Origin: Planctomycetaceae bacterium
Lineage (GTDB): Bacteria > Planctomycetota > Planctomycetia > Pirellulales > Pirellulaceae
DNA: 10,397 bases
Assembly: GCA_002685655.1 (NCBI GenBank)
Contig: NYXM01000078.1
Span: forward strand, 1-10,397
Reading direction: 5' to 3'
The position numbers and the translations under genes were made by a program. Shown here in pieces: positions 1,100 to 10,397 of the stretch. The notes beneath the pieces were generated by a model. It did not search any database. It saw only the letters and a list, made by a program, of their open reading frames with translations, and had not been told where the DNA came from. Each line of letters begins with the position of its first letter. Position 1 is the stretch's first letter.

Positions 1100-2623
1100 A
1101 TGGACCCAATATTCAGTCGCATAATCTGTCTGGTCATCTGCACACTGGTTTCGAATTCGGCCTTTGCACAGCAGCGCCGGCCCAATGTCGTCATTCTGCT
1201 GGCTGATGATCTCGGATCAGAGGATCTTGGTTGTTATGGCGGGCCGGTAAAGACACCGGTCCTCGATTCATTGGCGGAGCGTGGCGTCCGGTTCACCGAC
1301 TTCCATGCCGGCGCAGCGGTGTGTTCGCCGTCGCGGGCGACCCTCATTACCGGAAGGCAGAATCTTCGCACGGGCATTTACGGCGTCTTGCAGGATCACT
1401 GGCACAACATGCATCTACTCGAGCGTGAAGTGACAATTGCAGAAGTGCTCCAGCAGGCAGGATACGGGACAGCCCACTTCGGCAAGTGGCACATCGGCAT
1501 GACCTCCGGCAAGCGTAAGAAACCATCGCCAACCGAACACGGTTTTGACTACTGGTTCGGCCTCTCGAACGGAGCGAGCCCAAGTCACAAGAACCCGGTT
1601 AATTTTCGACGCAACGGCAAACCCGTTGGTCCGCTGAAAGGGTATTCATGCCAACTGGTCGTCGACGACGCGATCAGCTGGTTGGAAACGAAGGCAAATC
1701 CCGATCAGCCGTTCTTTATGAACATCTGGTTCAACGAGCCTCACTCCAAACTGGCGGCGCCGGACGAGATCGTGTCGATCTACGGAGACCTCAAGGATGA
1801 AGCCGCTATTTATTCCGCCACGGTCGACAACACCGATCGAGCCATTGGACGCCTCGTTGCAAAGCTCAAGAAAACAGGCCAGCTGAACAACACACTGATC
1901 ATCTACTCGTCTGACCATGGCAGCTACCGCTCTGATCGCAATGGCGGACTGAATGGTAACAAGGGGTCGAACTTTCAAGGCGGTTTGCGTTCGCCGGGGA
2001 TCTTCTTCTGGCCGAATGGCTTCCGGGGAGGACGAGTCGAGAACACGCCATCGGGATCGGTGGATTTTCTGCCGACCATCTGCGGCCTGGCCGGAATTGA
2101 TAAACCCAACGGCGTGCATCTCGATGGCGCCGACCTTTCGCCACTGCTGACTGAGAAAGGCACGTTTAAACGCGATCAACCATTGCTCTGGCTGTCACCC
2201 GCGTCGGGTCATCTGGCCACCTTGCGGGATGGGAATTACACGCTGATGGGTTACCGAGGCTACAAATTGCCTTCGGATCAGGCCAGGAAAAACGAATTGC
2301 TGCGGCAGATGGCAAAGATGGCGGGCATCGATCCGTCGACGCCCAATCTGGGCTCTCAAGTCACCAACACCACATTCTCCAGCCCGGAATACAATCGGCT
2401 GAAGGGCGAGTTCGTTCGTTTAAGAACCTTCCAGGAAGCGTGGATTCCGACGATCAAGGCAGGGGGATTCAGTCGGTTCGCTCTGTACGACTTGAGCACC
2501 GATCCGCTGCAAAAGAAGGACATTTCAAAACAGCGACCGAAAGTCACCGAGCGTCTCAAGAAGCAACTGCTGACGCTCTACAAGGATGTCATGGCCGACG
2601 CACCGGACTGGAACTTGAAATGA
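1100..2623 (+). CDS. Secreted arylsulfatase-like sulfatase, complete (507 aa)
   Basis: A type I formylglycine sulfatase predicted to release sulfate from a sulfated sugar in the periplasm or outside the cell. Residues 1-23 form a signal peptide (hydrophobic IICLVICTLVSNS, likely cleavage after A-F-A). The core follows directly: metal-binding D36-D37, catalytic C75-S-P-S-R79 (the Cys matured to formylglycine), G-K129-W-H131, an N-E-P-H substrate-site motif, metal-binding D272-H273 and K288 in G-N-K-G-S. The length of about 500 residues is normal. The ATG at 1100 is chosen because it puts the signal peptide at the N-terminus; GGAAA at 1091-1095 is only a weak ribosome-binding site. Its stop overlaps the next start (ATGA). 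It is a close paralogue of the sulfatase domain at 8251-9768 and a more distant one of 5339-6868, sharing the C-terminal F-x-E-x-W-I-P-x-I-K-A-G-G and V-M-A-D-x-P signatures. Family assignment is sure; substrate is not. Confidence 0.95.
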   Translation: MDPIFSRIICLVICTLVSNSAFAQQRRPNVVILLADDLGSEDLGCYGGPVKTPVLDSLAERGVRFTDFHAGAAVCSPSRATLITGRQNLRTGIYGVLQDHWHNMHLLEREVTIAEVLQQAGYGTAHFGKWHIGMTSGKRKKPSPTEHGFDYWFGLSNGASPSHKNPVNFRRNGKPVGPLKGYSCQLVVDDAISWLETKANPDQPFFMNIWFNEPHSKLAAPDEIVSIYGDLKDEAAIYSATVDNTDRAIGRLVAKLKKTGQLNNTLIIYSSDHGSYRSDRNGGLNGNKGSNFQGGLRSPGIFFWPNGFRGGRVENTPSGSVDFLPTICGLAGIDKPNGVHLDGADLSPLLTEKGTFKRDQPLLWLSPASGHLATLRDGNYTLMGYRGYKLPSDQARKNELLRQMAKMAGIDPSTPNLGSQVTNTTFSSPEYNRLKGEFVRLRTFQEAWIPTIKAGGFSRFALYDLSTDPLQKKDISKQRPKVTERLKKQLLTLYKDVMADAPDWNLK

Positions 2624-5337
2624 ACCGACGCAACACATGCTATTGCATCGCCATGGCTCTGCTCGCCTGCTTCACGGCAAGCCCGCTGATTGCCGAAGAT
2701 GAGAAAACAGCAGGCGTTTCCGACGGCAAATCGAAACGGCCTAATATCATTTTCTTTTTCACCGATGATCACGGCTGGCGGGATTCGGAGCCCTACGGCA
2801 ATCCGTATATTAAGACGCCGAACATGAAGCGGCTGGCGAAGGAGGCCATGCAGTTCATGCATGCCTATGCGGCCTCGCCTACGTGTTCCCCTTCGCGCTC
2901 GACGGTGGTGACCGGGTTGATGCCGCATCGCTGTGGCGCGGATTTCTTTGGCGCCCCGATCGCGCGCGACGTCAAAGTCATGTCGGGGTATTTCAATGAA
3001 GCGGGTTATCACACGGTAAGCGTGGGCAAGAGTGGGTACCTTCATGGGGGCTGGGGGCTCAGTCCGGCCGGGAGCAACCGATACACCCAAGGCATCGGGG
3101 ACGTCGACAGGGCGGATGAATACATCCGGAAATACAAGGGCGAAAAACCGCTCTTGATGTATATCGGCTGCGGAGAGCCGCACCAGCCGTGGCAGAAGAA
3201 TAAAATCTACGAACCTGAAAAGATCCCGGTGCCGCCAAACTTTGTCGATACGCCAGAGACGCGTCTGGCCATGGCGGATTACTACCAGGATGTGACCGTC
3301 ATGGATGAAAAGCTCGGCAAGGTGCTCGATGCGCTCGATGCCCGCGAGGACCTTAAGAAAAACACGCTCTTTGTGTTTTCCACTGATCAGGGCGCGCACC
3401 TGCCCTTTGGCAAGTGGAATCTTTACGACACCGGCCTACGCGTTCCGTTTATGGCGAGCTGGCCGGGCGTCATCGATCCGGGCAGCAAGACCGAGTCCAT
3501 GATCAACCTGGCAGATGTCCTGCCCACCTTTCTGGAAGCGGCTGGGGAGTCCATTCCTGACGGCCTGGATGGCAAGAGCTTCCTGCCCGTGCTGAAGGAC
3601 GGTTCGCAAAAGCATCGCGACATGGTTTTCGGCACGCACACCGGCAACAACAACGGGCCGCCAAGCAATCACAACAACAACCCGATGCGCACCATCCGCA
3701 CTCCCACGCATCGCTACATCTTTAATCTGGAACCCGACCGTCTGTTCAATACGAGCTGCCGTTTTCACATTCCACGTGTTAGCCCTGCGGCTTATTACGA
3801 AACTTGGCAGGAAACGGCAAAGACCTACGAATTCGCCAGGCGGATGATTCAGGCGTTTGAGCACCGCCCCGCCGATGAACTCTATGACCTGGAAGCGGAT
3901 CCGCATGAGATGAAGAATCTCGCCGACGACCCGAAGCATGCCGAGTTGCTCGAGTCGCTCAAAGCACAACTCACTGAGTGGTGCAGGACGCAGGACGACG
4001 TGGAGGCTTTGAAAAAACTGGAACCCAATCTCGCGCCGACTGCATCACAACAACCCAACATCGTTTTTATTCTGAGTGATGACCAGGCATGGACGGACTA
4101 CGGTTTCATGGGCCATCCCGATATCAAGACACCTCACCTCGACAAGCTGGCCAGCCGCAGTCTGGTTTTCGAGCGTGGGTATGTCGCCTCGCCACTGTGT
4201 CGGCCATCTCTTGCTTCGCTGGCAACGGGGCTGTATCCGTTTCAACACGGCATTACCGGCAACGATGTGGGGAGTGGCGGCAAAGATCGTGCGGCGCTGG
4301 ATGCGCCGATGAAGGCCGCATTTCACAGACATCCCAGTTTCATCAAGATGTTGCCGTCAAACGGCTACCTGGCACATCAGTCCGGCAAGTGGTGGGAGGG
4401 GTCGTTTGCAGATGGCGGGTTCACACACGGCATGACCCATGGCGATCCAAAACGCGGCGGCCGACACGGCGATGAGGGGTTGAAGATAGGGCGTTACCCC
4501 AAGGCCAAGCCGATGAAGCCGGTGACTGATTTCATTGATTTGGCCACGAAAGAAAAGAAGCCGTTCCTTCTGTGGTATGCACCGTTCCTGCCCCATACCC
4601 CTCACAATCCGCCCCGGCGTTTACTGGAAAAATACACCGTGCCCGGCCGCGCCGAGGATGTCGCAAAATATTACGCGATGTGTGAGTGGTTTGATGAGAC
4701 CTGCGGACAGTTACTCGGCTATCTGGATAAGAAGAACCTCACTGAAAACACGATGGTGATTTACATCTGCGACAACGGTTGGGCGGCGGCGAGCACGAAT
4801 GCAAGCGACCCGAATCAGAAGTCATGGAGAGGTTTTGCCCTACGTTCCAAGGGCTCTCCTTATGAAAATGGGATCCGCACTCCCATCATGATTTCCTGGC
4901 CGGGCCACGTTCGGCCGGGAAGCTCAGGGAGAGCGCCTGCTCATGCGATCGACATCTTTCCGACGATTGCTGCCGCTGCCGGCCTGAAGGCGCCAGAGAA
5001 TCTACAGGGCATTAATTTGCTCGACGCCGAGGCCCGTCGCAAGCGAAGGCTTGTATTCGGCGTTACGAATTCGATCCAGGATATGACACCGGGAGATCCC
5101 AACAGCACGCTGCAATATCTCTGGTGTATTGAAGACAATTGGAAGCTTCTGGTTCGCTATGACGGAAAGGACACCACGAGATACAAGAATGTGCACATCT
5201 GGGATACGGCGTTTGTGCGGTTGTACAACCTCAAAACCGATCCGCACGAGAAGAAGGATCTGGCCGGAGCGAATCCGGATGTCGTCAAACGGCTGAGAAG
5301 GAAGATCGAGGCCTGGCATTTGGTGAACAGGAAATAA
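2620..5337 (+). CDS. Double-domain sulfatase: sulfamidase-like domain fused to a second, noncanonical sulfatase domain (905 aa)
   Basis: Two complete sulfatase domains lie in one chain, about twice the usual length. A signal peptide covers residues 1-25 (ALLACFTASPLIA; the L-L-A-C could be read as a poor lipobox). Domain A, about residues 40-465, has D49-D50, canonical C89-S-P-S-R93, K137 in G-K-S-G-Y-L-H, P-H188-Q-P-W, D256-Q257 and G-K265-W-N-L-Y-D. This pattern resembles heparan N-sulfatase (N-sulfoglucosamine sulfohydrolase) relatives, though the substrate is inferred. Domain B, about 477-905, has D487-D488, C527-R-P-S-L531 where Arg is expected, G-K590-W-W-E-G, P-H659-T-P-H, D718-N719 and K744. 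No signal peptide lies between the domains, only a short linker around 466-478, so this is a genuine fusion in the sequence shown. The start at 2620 overlaps the previous stop as ATGA. An in-frame ATG at 2440 lies inside gene 2 and would hide the signal peptide, so it was not used. Confidence 0.93.
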   Translation: MNRRNTCYCIAMALLACFTASPLIAEDEKTAGVSDGKSKRPNIIFFFTDDHGWRDSEPYGNPYIKTPNMKRLAKEAMQFMHAYAASPTCSPSRSTVVTGLMPHRCGADFFGAPIARDVKVMSGYFNEAGYHTVSVGKSGYLHGGWGLSPAGSNRYTQGIGDVDRADEYIRKYKGEKPLLMYIGCGEPHQPWQKNKIYEPEKIPVPPNFVDTPETRLAMADYYQDVTVMDEKLGKVLDALDAREDLKKNTLFVFSTDQGAHLPFGKWNLYDTGLRVPFMASWPGVIDPGSKTESMINLADVLPTFLEAAGESIPDGLDGKSFLPVLKDGSQKHRDMVFGTHTGNNNGPPSNHNNNPMRTIRTPTHRYIFNLEPDRLFNTSCRFHIPRVSPAAYYETWQETAKTYEFARRMIQAFEHRPADELYDLEADPHEMKNLADDPKHAELLESLKAQLTEWCRTQDDVEALKKLEPNLAPTASQQPNIVFILSDDQAWTDYGFMGHPDIKTPHLDKLASRSLVFERGYVASPLCRPSLASLATGLYPFQHGITGNDVGSGGKDRAALDAPMKAAFHRHPSFIKMLPSNGYLAHQSGKWWEGSFADGGFTHGMTHGDPKRGGRHGDEGLKIGRYPKAKPMKPVTDFIDLATKEKKPFLLWYAPFLPHTPHNPPRRLLEKYTVPGRAEDVAKYYAMCEWFDETCGQLLGYLDKKNLTENTMVIYICDNGWAAASTNASDPNQKSWRGFALRSKGSPYENGIRTPIMISWPGHVRPGSSGRAPAHAIDIFPTIAAAAGLKAPENLQGINLLDAEARRKRRLVFGVTNSIQDMTPGDPNSTLQYLWCIEDNWKLLVRYDGKDTTRYKNVHIWDTAFVRLYNLKTDPHEKKDLAGANPDVVKRLRRKIEAWHLVNRK
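5329..5332 (+). promoter_or_regulatory. Shine-Dalgarno-like AGGA before the 5339 sulfatase
   Basis: AGGA (continuing as AGGAAA) lies six bases before the ATG at 5339, inside the last codons of the preceding double sulfatase. With only one base between that stop and this ATG, it supports 5339 as the start and suggests coupled translation. It is a short motif, so this is modest evidence. Confidence 0.45.
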
Positions 5338-6868: not shown

Positions 6869-6970
6869 TGCCAAAATCAAACTGTGTTTACGAGTTTGAA
6901 ATACACTCCTTCATTCACCCACTGGACCGACACCAGGTATTCCCCCAATCGAAGATCGAACTCCAAATCC
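6869..6970 (+). other. 102-base gap between the sulfatase and oxidoreductase genes
   Basis: This is the widest noncoding stretch in the window. It is less GC-rich than the flanking genes around 6871-6905. I see no convincing inverted repeat followed by T-rich sequence, so no terminator is called, and no promoter hexamers strong enough to name. A GTG at 6884 is in frame with the oxidoreductase and would add 29 residues with no signal-peptide character; it is disfavoured. The gap could hold an internal promoter or be a simple leader (inference). Confidence 0.5.
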
Positions 6971-8254
6971 ATGAACATGCACCGTCTCTCAGTCTCTCGT
7001 CGTTCCTTCCTGCAAACGGCTGCCGCAAGTGCCGTTGTCCCGACGATCATCACCAGCGATGCCTGGGCCAATAAGCCGAGCGAGACAATCAACATTGGCT
7101 TTGTCGGAGTCGGTAAACAAAGCGCGGGTCATTTGGGGTTCTTTCTGGGGCAAAAAGATTGCCGGGTCGTGAGTGTGGCTGAAGTCGCTCAAGTACGCCT
7201 CGACCACGCCATGAGTCGGGTAAGTCAAAAGTACGGGGCCAATCACGACTGCAAGGCCGAGGTCGATTTTCGTGAGACGCTTTCCGACGAACGCGTGGAT
7301 GCTGTTGTCATCGGCACTCCCGACCATTGGCATGCTATCCCCTCGATCATGGCCGCCGAGGCAAAGAAGGATGTGTACTGCGAAAAGCCGCTGACCGTCA
7401 CCATTCGCGCGGCCCTGGAAACCCTCAAGGCCGCCCGCAAAAACGACATTGTCTATCAGGTCGGCAGCCAGCAACGAACTGAGTTTCGTGGATACTTCCG
7501 GAAGGCGGTCGAATGCATCCGCAACGGACGGGTTGGCAAGGTGACCAAGATCAAGATTGGTGTCGGGACCGCCGGTGTTCCGTGTGATTTGCCCGCCGAA
7601 AAGAAACCTGAGGGAATTGACTGGGACATGTGGTTGGGGCCAGCTCCGATGCGTGAATTCAATTCAGTCCTCTGCCCGACGGATGTGCATCGGCATTTTC
7701 CCCAATGGCGTCGTTATCGGGAATATGCCGGTGGAGGCCTGAGTGATATGGGGGCTCACCACTACGACATTGCCAAGTGGGCCATGGATCTTGACGAAAC
7801 CGGCCCGGTAAAAATCATCCCTCCGGAGAGCGGAACCAGTGGCTTGAAAATGATCTATGCCGATGGCTTGGAGATCATCCATGAAAGCACTCAAGACCCC
7901 TTCAATGATGTCATCTTTTACGGAGACGAAGGAACGCTTTATGTCGACCGGCGTGGCATCACGGCCGACCCCAAGAGTGCCGTGGAGTCCCCTTTCGGCC
8001 CAAACGATTGGCGGTTACCTGACATCGGACCGAGCCATCACCGCAACTGGATCGATTGCATTCGCAGCCGGGAACGGCCGGTGGCGGATGTTTCCTTTGG
8101 CGCCCATACGAGCATCCTTTGCAGCCTGGCCAACCACGGCTACCAACTGGGTAGAGAAATGAACTGGGACCCAAACAAATACGAATTCCCAGGCGACAAA
8201 GAAGCGAACGCTCTGCTTAGTCGCCCGGGCCGCGGACCATGGAAGCTGGCATGA
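6971..8254 (+). CDS. Gfo/Idh/MocA-family oxidoreductase with Tat signal (427 aa)
   Basis: A predicted NAD(P)-dependent sugar or cyclitol oxidoreductase (or GH109-like hydrolase, which shares the fold) sent out of the cytoplasm folded by the Tat system. Residues 7-14 read S-V-S-R10-R11-S-F-L, a twin-arginine motif, followed by a weakly hydrophobic A-A-A-S-A-V-V stretch and D-A-W-A near residue 33. The Rossmann fold starts I-G-F-V-G-V-G-K (about 42-49). The family's catalytic Lys is in E138-K139-P140, and the C-terminal domain shows W-x-x-W-L-G-P-A-P and G-G-G-L-S-D259-M-G-A-H263-H264-Y-D266. ATG 6971 is chosen because it puts the twin-arginine motif near the N-terminus; ATG 6977 is equally possible. 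The last position of the usual G-x-G-x-x-G loop is Ser, a mild deviation. Its stop overlaps the next start (ATGA), coupling it to the fused sulfatase. Substrate unknown; oxidation of a desulfated sugar is a guess from context. Confidence 0.92.
   Translation: MNMHRLSVSRRSFLQTAAASAVVPTIITSDAWANKPSETINIGFVGVGKQSAGHLGFFLGQKDCRVVSVAEVAQVRLDHAMSRVSQKYGANHDCKAEVDFRETLSDERVDAVVIGTPDHWHAIPSIMAAEAKKDVYCEKPLTVTIRAALETLKAARKNDIVYQVGSQQRTEFRGYFRKAVECIRNGRVGKVTKIKIGVGTAGVPCDLPAEKKPEGIDWDMWLGPAPMREFNSVLCPTDVHRHFPQWRRYREYAGGGLSDMGAHHYDIAKWAMDLDETGPVKIIPPESGTSGLKMIYADGLEIIHESTQDPFNDVIFYGDEGTLYVDRRGITADPKSAVESPFGPNDWRLPDIGPSHHRNWIDCIRSRERPVADVSFGAHTSILCSLANHGYQLGREMNWDPNKYEFPGDKEANALLSRPGRGPWKLA
8241..8245 (+). 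promoter_or_regulatory. Shine-Dalgarno-like GGAAG before the 8251 fusion gene
   Basis: GGAAG ends five bases before ATG 8251, within the last codons of the oxidoreductase gene. It favours 8251 over the in-frame ATG at 8263, although both give a workable signal peptide. Together with the ATGA overlap it suggests translational coupling. Confidence 0.35.
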
Positions 8255-10397
8255 ATAAGATCATGAAATCAATCATCTACACAATCGTTATCTTCTGCGT
8301 TGTTCCGCCTGCGCTACAGGCGGCGGAACAACGGCCCAATGTCGTCATCCTGCTGGCTGATGATCTCGGCTCAAAAGACCTCGGTTGTTACGGCGGCCCC
8401 GTGAAGACTCCGGTGCTGGACGAACTAGCCGCGAAAGGCGTCCGTTTCACCGACTTCCACGCCGGGGCGGCAATCTGCTCGCCATCGCGGGCAACCCTCA
8501 TCACCGGGCGACAACACCTGCGAACGGGCATCTACGGCGTCCTTCAGGACCACATGCACAACATGCATCTGCTTGAGCGGGAGGTGACGATTCCGGAACT
8601 GCTCCAGCAGGCCGGATATGGCACGGCGCACTTTGGCAAGTGGCACATCGGGATGACTTCGGGCAAACGCAAGAAACCGTCGCCCAGCGAACACGGTTTC
8701 GACTACTGGTTCGGTCTGTCCAATGGCGCCCATCCCAGCCACAAGGATCCGGTTAACTTCCTACGTAACGGCAAGCGGGTTGGACTATTGGAAGGCTATT
8801 CGTGTCAACTGATCGTGGATGATGCGATCCGCTGGTTGGACGAGAAAGAGCATCCGGACCAACCGTTCTTTCTGAACCTCTGGTTCAACGAACCCCATGC
8901 CAAGATCGCGGCGCCCGCGGAGATCGTGTCGCTTTACGGTGACCTCAAAGACGAAGCCGCCATCTATTCCGCCACGATCGACAATACCGATCGAGCCATC
9001 GGACGCCTGGTTGCCAAACTCAAGGCGATGGGCAAACTCGATAACACATTGATCATCTATTCATCGGACCATGGCAGCTATCGAAAAGATCGCAATGGCG
9101 GACTGAATGGCAACAAGGGTTCGAATTTCCAGGGCGGTCTGCGTTCGCCCGGGATCATCTTCTGGCCGGATGGTATTCGCGGCGGACGAATTGAAGACAC
9201 TGCTTGCGGCTCAGTCGATTTGCTGCCAACCATCTGCGCTCTGACCGGCATTAATGAACCCGCGGGCGTCCATCTGGACGGCGCCGATCTCTCGCCCTTG
9301 TTGTTAGAGAAGGGGGCGCTTAAACGCGATCAGCCTCTGCTCTGGCTTGCGCCGTCCTCGGGACACCTGGCCACTTTGCGCGACGGGTCCTACACATTGA
9401 TGGGATATCATGGCTATCAACTGCCGTTTGATCGCGACCGATTCAACGCGATCCTGAAAAGGATGGCTGAGTTGGCGGGCATCGATCCGTCAGTCCCCAA
9501 CCTTATCCAGGCGGTGAGCAATACGACGTTTTCCAGTCCTGAATTCCAACGCCTGAACGCCGAGCGAGTGCGTTTGCAGACCTTCCAGGAAGCGTGGATT
9601 CCGGCGATCAAGGCGGGCGGGTTCAGTCGGTTTGCGCTGTATGACCTCAGCACCGACCCGTTGCAGAAGAACGATATTTCGCGGCAGCGCCCGGAGGTCA
9701 CTGAGCGGCTGAAGAAGAAACTACTGGACCTCTACAAGAACGTGATGGCCGACGCCCCCATTTGGAAGCCGGTGCCTGATGCCTACTCCACCAAGACCGC
9801 CGCGCCTCCTAACTCACCTAATGCCAAACTGCTGGCAAAGATCGATAAGAGAGATCCGCCAAAGGGCTATCGAGGTGGCAAGGATCATCAGAAATACGTC
9901 GATCAGCGGATGGCTAGGTTGAACTCCCAACAGCGGGCGCGCGTCGGGCAACTTTTTAAGGAGAAATGCCGGCTGGATCCCAACATGCCGAACGTCGGAC
10001 TGTCGTTCGTCAAGATCCTCGATTACGTGGCCGGCGAAGAAAAAGCTGATGTGGCAAAGGACAGCGGATCTCCTGAGGTGAATTGGCATCAGTGGCGAGG
10101 TCCGGAAGCAAACGGAGTCAGTCGCACGGCAAAGCCGCCACTCGAATGGAGCGAAGATCGCAACATCAAATGGAAGGTCGCGATCAAGGGCCAGGGTAAT
10201 GCGTCACCGATCGTCTGGGGCGACAAGGTTTTCGTGCTCACCGCGATCAACACGGGCCGCGTTGATCCGTCGCTGCCCAAACCGGAAGACCAGCCGAAAC
10301 GAGTCTTCGGTATCAAGCACCCAAATACGTTTTACAAATTCGAGGTCCTGTGCCTCGACCGCCAAACGGGCAAGGAGCTCTGGCGACAGACAGCCAG
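8251..10397 (+). CDS. Sulfatase fused to a PQQ-like (BamB-type) beta-propeller, 3' end cut by the window
   Basis: The frame from ATG 8251 has no stop up to the window edge (715 residues visible). Residues 1-24 are a signal peptide (SIIYTIVIFCVVPPALQA). Residues 26-505 are a full sulfatase: metal-binding D37-D38, catalytic C76-S-P-S-R, G-K-W-H-I-G, N-E-P-H, S-D-H-G and G-N-K-G-S, very close to gene 2 throughout. Where gene 2 stops after V-M-A-D-A-P-D-W-N-L-K, this protein has V-M-A-D-A-P-I-W-K and continues. Residues about 507-610 form a Lys/Arg-rich linker with a conserved-looking part (G-Y-R-G-G-K-D-H-Q, then D-P-N-M-P-N) that I cannot assign. From about 611, N-W-H-Q-W-R-G-P, then W-K-V-A-I-K-G-Q-G-N-A-S-P-I-V-W-G-D-K-V and later L-C-L-D-R-Q-T-G-K-E-L-W are typical PQQ-like propeller blades. 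No second signal peptide separates the parts. Both parts are normally extracytoplasmic. The propeller may bind a partner, substrate or cofactor; its role is unknown. Confidence 0.9.
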   Translation, partial: MNKIMKSIIYTIVIFCVVPPALQAAEQRPNVVILLADDLGSKDLGCYGGPVKTPVLDELAAKGVRFTDFHAGAAICSPSRATLITGRQHLRTGIYGVLQDHMHNMHLLEREVTIPELLQQAGYGTAHFGKWHIGMTSGKRKKPSPSEHGFDYWFGLSNGAHPSHKDPVNFLRNGKRVGLLEGYSCQLIVDDAIRWLDEKEHPDQPFFLNLWFNEPHAKIAAPAEIVSLYGDLKDEAAIYSATIDNTDRAIGRLVAKLKAMGKLDNTLIIYSSDHGSYRKDRNGGLNGNKGSNFQGGLRSPGIIFWPDGIRGGRIEDTACGSVDLLPTICALTGINEPAGVHLDGADLSPLLLEKGALKRDQPLLWLAPSSGHLATLRDGSYTLMGYHGYQLPFDRDRFNAILKRMAELAGIDPSVPNLIQAVSNTTFSSPEFQRLNAERVRLQTFQEAWIPAIKAGGFSRFALYDLSTDPLQKNDISRQRPEVTERLKKKLLDLYKNVMADAPIWKPVPDAYSTKTAAPPNSPNAKLLAKIDKRDPPKGYRGGKDHQKYVDQRMARLNSQQRARVGQLFKEKCRLDPNMPNVGLSFVKILDYVAGEEKADVAKDSGSPEVNWHQWRGPEANGVSRTAKPPLEWSEDRNIKWKVAIKGQGNASPIVWGDKVFVLTAINTGRVDPSLPKPEDQPKRVFGIKHPNTFYKFEVLCLDRQTGKELWRQTA

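Follow-up and report, generated by a model that had tools for sequence, protein, structure and literature searches.

How does an exported sulfatase come to continue in frame into a β-propeller, and what might such a protein do? The question is raised by the 10,397-nucleotide stretch analyzed here (the window; positions 1 to 10,397 of contig NYXM01000078.1, assembly GCA_002685655.1, Planctomycetaceae bacterium), in which an initial annotation described a sulfatase fused to a pyrroloquinoline quinone (PQQ)-like propeller, an enzyme tethered to a scaffold. The in-frame fusion is confirmed and is wider than first seen. The complete protein carries four modules rather than two: a formylglycine (FGly) sulfatase (S), a helical module (L), a BamB-like propeller (P), and a CxxCH domain (C), in the order S-L-P-C on one chain, with L between the two parts noticed first and C beyond the window edge. 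Our best reading, which we judge about as likely as not, places this exported protein in an extracytoplasmic system of planctomycetes and their relatives that acts on sulfated glycans and is linked to electron transfer.

The frame opens at ATG 8251 on the forward strand and runs without a stop to the window end at 10397, with a single N-terminal signal sequence (8251 to 8322, residues 1 to 24, recognized by eye), as previously described. The window holds 715 of 1,229 residues; a database protein of 1,229 residues (P0002, encoded on a 31,976-base contig) is identical to the window translation over residues 1 to 715 and supplies the remainder of P and the whole of C. Within the window, the sulfatase core (8335 to 9252, residues 29 to 334, assigned by Pfam) and the sulfatase C-terminal part (9253 to 9765, up to residue 505, where the alignment with a paralogue ends) are followed by L (9814 to 10050, ∼75 residues, modeled as four helices in a relative) and the start of P (10081 to 10397; P spans about residues 611 to 1023 in P0002). 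C occupies about residues 1036 to 1229. The propeller motifs reported earlier were found at residues 612 (WHQWRGP, nucleotide 10084), 657 (GDKV), and 703 (DRQTGKELW).

An assembly artefact or a missed stop at the S-P junction could in principle mimic a fusion. Independent records carry the same join, however, and identical architecture occurs in many separate records. In addition, when the window gene was compared with five relatives, codon position 3 was richest in differences in 15 of 15 comparisons, on either side of the join; the excess was clear after it (residues 611 to 715) and weaker in the faster-changing stretch from 505 to 610, where the third position held 45 to 50% of the differences. 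An artefact is accordingly so improbable that it was set aside. S and P share one chain in 36 of the 120 listed relatives (35 by simpler BLAST labeling; 120 of 4508 were listed, and the 7995 candidates sharing most words were scored), and the pattern that the initial annotation would have counted against a fusion, homologues always encoded by separate genes, was not observed. Separate propellers of the kind it regarded as usual do exist: 49 P proteins among the genome-contig loci are unjoined to S, L, or C, and most have a signal-peptide-like start (by eye).

Removal of sulfate by S is supported by its family and its motif. The Pfam Sulfatase family (PF00884) matched residues 29 to 334 of the window protein with 214 bits (cutoff, 25), and the maturation motif C-x-P-x-R is present as CSPSR (8476 to 8490, residues 76 to 80). 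CSPSR or CSPAR was found in 41 of 46 S-L-P-C stretches, while the motif was not found in 9 of 50 S-C and 3 of 4 S-P-L stretches (motif counts for S and C stretches include redundant sequences). The top sequence matches in the PDB, S1 FGly sulfatases such as arylsulfatase 3ed4 and carrageenan sulfatases, have the core and CSPSR in common with S but span the sulfatase part alone; L, the propeller, and the heme domain are additional. Two related sulfatases (P0080 and P0116) have a PF06439 match, and another (P0095) has an N-terminal YNCE-like propeller, below the cutoff.

The designation of the propeller as PQQ-like stood at the level of superfamily, since PQQ_2 (PF13360) matched P0002 with 105.9 bits (cutoff, 27.6; best stretch, 698 to 945). 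On the cut window protein the match reached an E value of only 0.049, below its cutoff. Eight blades were counted by eye from sequence repeats and model strands, and the fold rows obtained for a relative agree with such a propeller. P resembles BamB more closely than it resembles PQQ enzymes, but at 43.4 bits against 285.2 for the equivalog TIGR03300 it lies far from BamB proper, and unlike the BamB/PQQ_2 propellers and YxaL it sits within an exported sulfatase. The PQQ dehydrogenase model PF01011 gave 25.3 bits, under its cutoff of 26.7. Classical PQQ alcohol dehydrogenases contain an adjacent-cysteine disulfide; of 180 P modules (redundant sequences included), only 3 have adjacent cysteines. 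PQQ binding by P is not supported, and the reading as a PQQ enzyme is disfavored by the Pfam cutoff, the nearest folds, and the rarity of adjacent cysteines. This bears on the proposal that the protein is a quinohemoprotein dehydrogenase, in which, on the pattern of type II alcohol dehydrogenases, P would bind PQQ and oxidize the desulfated sugar and C would accept the electrons; we regard it as very unlikely. His725, Asp738, Arg951, and Arg1013 (P0002 numbering) are retained in 98 to 100% of 128 near relatives and in 100% of 28 distant ones and form a possible site of P.

C makes the tethering of an enzyme to a scaffold an incomplete account, because it bears a heme-attachment motif and because neighboring genes in the relatives encode further heme-motif proteins. 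P0002 has a single CxxCH (CAACH at residue 1121), and CxxCH occurs in 62 of 62 aligned C domains and in 50 of 51 S-L-P-C stretches. The Cytochrom_C match on P0002 (residues 1120 to 1204) was below the cutoff (17.8 versus 21.3 bits), and that in the relative P0031 was above it (26.9 bits). The motif and the structural model together support heme attachment to C. In its model C looks like one half of MauG or of a bacterial cytochrome c peroxidase: the best structural rows were MauG and di-heme peroxidases, with weak Foldseek E values (best, 0.042). C may act as the peroxidase or maturase half of a MauG-like two-heme unit, made complete by the hemes of a neighboring protein, V-L-Y (described below), and modify a protein partner. 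Those structural rows favor such a role, as does the adjoining V-L-Y, which bears its own heme motifs. MauG and bacterial di-heme peroxidases share CxxCH with C but have two hemes per chain, whereas P0002 has one CxxCH and C has a long invariant N-terminal motif. With a single CxxCH and weak E values, this role is very unlikely. In the N-terminal part of C (L001:3262-3846), His6, FDAFxYVNRxP, and RLANQEGR are near-invariant across fusion partners (62 aligned rows); His6 and Met61 are candidate heme ligands. Further fusion partners of C are Kelch proteins (P0184, P0186, P0194, and P0209) and an esterase (P0153), as judged by a Pfam scan for P0186 and by Pfam listings for the rest.

L has no Pfam match. 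Three matches to solved structures (best E value, 0.58) were put down to chance, and no new fold is claimed for L; the rows of the VIA list obtained with the L-P-C model were taken up by the propeller. L was found in at least 4 of 294 genomes in a Planctomycetota sample, at least 41 of 241 genomes of one family (two of the 41, G003 and G001, being genomes whose loci were already in the set), and at least 2 of 288 in a Verrucomicrobiota sample (one being the centre, G004), all lower bounds from scoring at most 20 to 24 candidates per genome. Among its hosts are S, P, V (the Vgb-like propeller of V-L-Y), a Gfo/Idh/MocA-like protein, 3-keto-disaccharide hydrolases of PF06439, and small proteins that begin with a signal-like sequence. 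L may represent a new domain family and offers a means of tracing further parts of the system. At one locus (L143:1087-2343), a protein matching the hidden Markov model of the window's Gfo/Idh/MocA protein is joined to L, and a partial frame ahead of it likewise ends in L. At another (L075:5393-6897), two neighboring small proteins, 240 and 261 residues long, begin with signal-like sequences, have no Pfam match, and carry L at the end.

Genes near the fusion in relatives encode further heme-motif proteins. All eight S-L-P-C loci (L001 to L008, some ending before neighbors become visible) contain V-L-Y, which combines a carboxypeptidase-regulatory domain, CxxCH, a Vgb-like propeller, L, and a TIGR02603 heme domain and lies directly downstream of the fusion in seven. 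The same eight loci encode X, a PSD3/PSD5/PSD4/PSCyt3/PSD2 protein (neighbor clusters were named by Pfam from one representative each); DUF1552 is present in five, an ECF sigma factor with FecR in five, and a homologue of the formylglycine-generating enzyme in four. No PSCyt or PSD domain was among the Pfam families of P0002 at E values up to 1; these domains were found instead in the X protein (one representative). Among 50 V proteins distinct by sequence (multi-heme proteins with a Vgb propeller), the upstream gene was in view for 42 and out of view for 8. Of the 42, it encoded a C-bearing protein in 35 (S-C, 21; S-L-P-C, 7; S-L-C, 5; P-C, 1; C, 1) but not in 7; close relatives are counted separately here, and 5 partial proteins were left out. 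PSD/PSCyt and DUF1552 genes often lie further along, past the C-V pair. A single hhalign comparison of DUF1552 with sulfatases (13% probability; E value, 0.0022; 74 columns) is a weak lead.

The fusion takes many forms. The 36 relatives with S and P on one chain comprise S-L-P (13), S-L-P-C (13), P-S-L (4), S-P-L (3), S-P (2), and S-P-C (1); the others are S-S (32), S (26), S-L (13), S-L-S (7), and the rarer S-S-L (2), S-C (2), S-S-L-C (1), and S-L-C (1). Many orders and partners also appear in a second set of proteins, of which 120 of 148 were listed. The search for like architecture in other records that the initial annotation had proposed found S-L-P-C in 8 of 79 genome-contig loci; these were selected by similarity to P and C (the best 80 of 421 confirmed), and a second locus set was selected by L, and neither gives population frequencies. 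One of the eight is cut by the contig start (L003), and in another (L006) the sulfatase is split between frames. Separate genes were rejected for L006: the downstream frame opens inside the sulfatase C terminus and the upstream sulfatase sequence departs its frame, positions that make the split look like frame errors.

In a quick tree of P (170 rows thinned to 156; no bootstrap, long branches), 33 of 33 S-L-P-C modules fell inside one 45-row group (SH-aLRT, 99), which also contains S-L-P, S-P-C, S-P, and possibly fragmentary rows. Other S-L-P, P-S-L, S-P-L, and S-P forms lie elsewhere, several from Verrucomicrobiota, and the fused-to-S state requires 11 changes, with some unfused rows being fragments. 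This scatter and these changes suggest that the S-P fusion arose repeatedly, as it appears, in varied orders. Pairwise identities among 20 S-L-P-C or S-P-C proteins of >1,100 residues (including L001 and P0064, seemingly one protein, and P0062, in which C is cut) correlated strongly between P and C (r = 0.87) and hardly between S and P (r = 0.17) or S and C (r = 0.17); P0065 and P0002 are 98% identical in P and about 60% in S. From this covariation, sulfatases look to have been exchanged on a shared P-C chassis.

In loci titled Verrucomicrobiota, the C-bearing long chains (nine chains of 1,506 to 1,826 residues, some cut) fuse P, L, V, and C, often with a further domain, K, and a sulfatase gene comes next in 6 of 9. 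K matched no copper-protein Pfam family; we take it to be cupredoxin-like from its C-x2-H-x2-M motif. The longest, a P-L-V-L-C-K chain of 1,826 residues (L073:7860-13340), has two propeller types, heme motifs, and a presumed cupredoxin-like domain.

Neutral domain shuffling could produce much of this pattern: a cluster of exported proteins, duplicated, co-transcribed, and unstable, would keep fusing neighbors, P and C would fold and work alone, and fusion would set only stoichiometry. The numerous orders and partners, the 11 changes on the tree (some unfused rows being fragments), the slight S-P correlation, and a tandem sulfatase inside the window are what such shuffling would leave behind. 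The covariation of P with C argues otherwise, as does the C-V adjacency, which persists across fusion forms (35 of 42 cases). So does the distribution of L: it was found in few sampled genomes, and of the 21 family genomes having at least two copies, 16 have two of them on one contig no more than 10 kb apart. On this evidence neutral shuffling is unlikely, although it is the strongest of the alternatives considered here.

We postulate the following for an electron-transfer-linked glycan system. S would take sulfate off the glycan outside the cytoplasm, P might grip the glycan or partner proteins, and L could be an assembly tag common to the parts. C would serve as an electron relay linking a partner dehydrogenase with the hemes of the neighboring V-L-Y and PSD/PSCyt proteins, and desulfation would thereby be physically coupled to sugar oxidation. 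The fusion and the gene order are the grounds on which we infer electron transfer, L-mediated assembly, and the link to sugar oxidation. A candidate site of oxidation is C3, because a Gfo/Idh/MocA gene precedes the fusion, because L is fused to a Gfo/Idh/MocA protein and to 3-keto-disaccharide hydrolases, and because PF06439/DUF1080 hydrolases are proposed to follow periplasmic LacABC oxidation in a 3-keto-glycoside pathway (PMC9007349). That pathway and the clusters here have these hydrolases in common, some with L here, but its tie to the S-L-P-C protein is indirect. More speculatively, and with a probability well below even, the loci may encode an undescribed extracytoplasmic machine of planctomycetes and relatives with exchangeable sulfatase cassettes on a propeller-heme chassis, in which a glycan would be desulfated and the same sugar oxidized, with electrons passing via MauG-like, Vgb-heme, and PSCyt hemes and L tagging sulfatase, propeller, cytochrome, oxidoreductase, and 3-keto-hydrolase parts. 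If true, this would assign a function to the PSCyt/PSD gene sets of Verrucomicrobia and planctomycetes; one study states that nothing is known of what these genes do, although certain genomes often have them close to sulfatase genes (PMC5615132). Those sets likewise place heme proteins near sulfatases, and PSD/PSCyt3 and DUF1552 genes occur in the relatives' clusters; here, by contrast, a heme motif and a sulfatase share one chain, accompanied by V-L-Y, P, and L, an arrangement not described in the consulted passages of that study. The association thereby becomes a testable physical link, with the prediction that these bacteria may rely on electron acceptors when they break down sulfated glycans. 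Within the open-licence library and the terms used for searching it, no title or abstract opening described a sulfatase-propeller-cytochrome fusion. S, P, and C are of known kinds or similar to them, and L matched none; the novelty lies in how the modules are combined, in the exchange of cassettes, and in the pairing of C with V.

Upstream of the fusion, the window holds sulfatases and the Gfo/Idh/MocA gene rather than the sigma factor/FecR set. The Gfo/Idh/MocA oxidoreductase (6884 to 8254, forward strand) overlaps the ATG at 8251 by 4 bases; its possible TAT signal scored below both curated cutoffs, and its nearest named family, the BT_2158 glycoside 3-dehydrogenase, is distant, with a score far below the cutoff. 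The paralogous sulfatase (1100 to 2623, forward strand) indeed lacks the extension, being 80% identical over 505 residues and ending before L. Between them, positions 2620 to 5337 encode a tandem two-sulfatase protein, the second copy of which may not be matured, because CRPSL replaces C-x-P-x-R.
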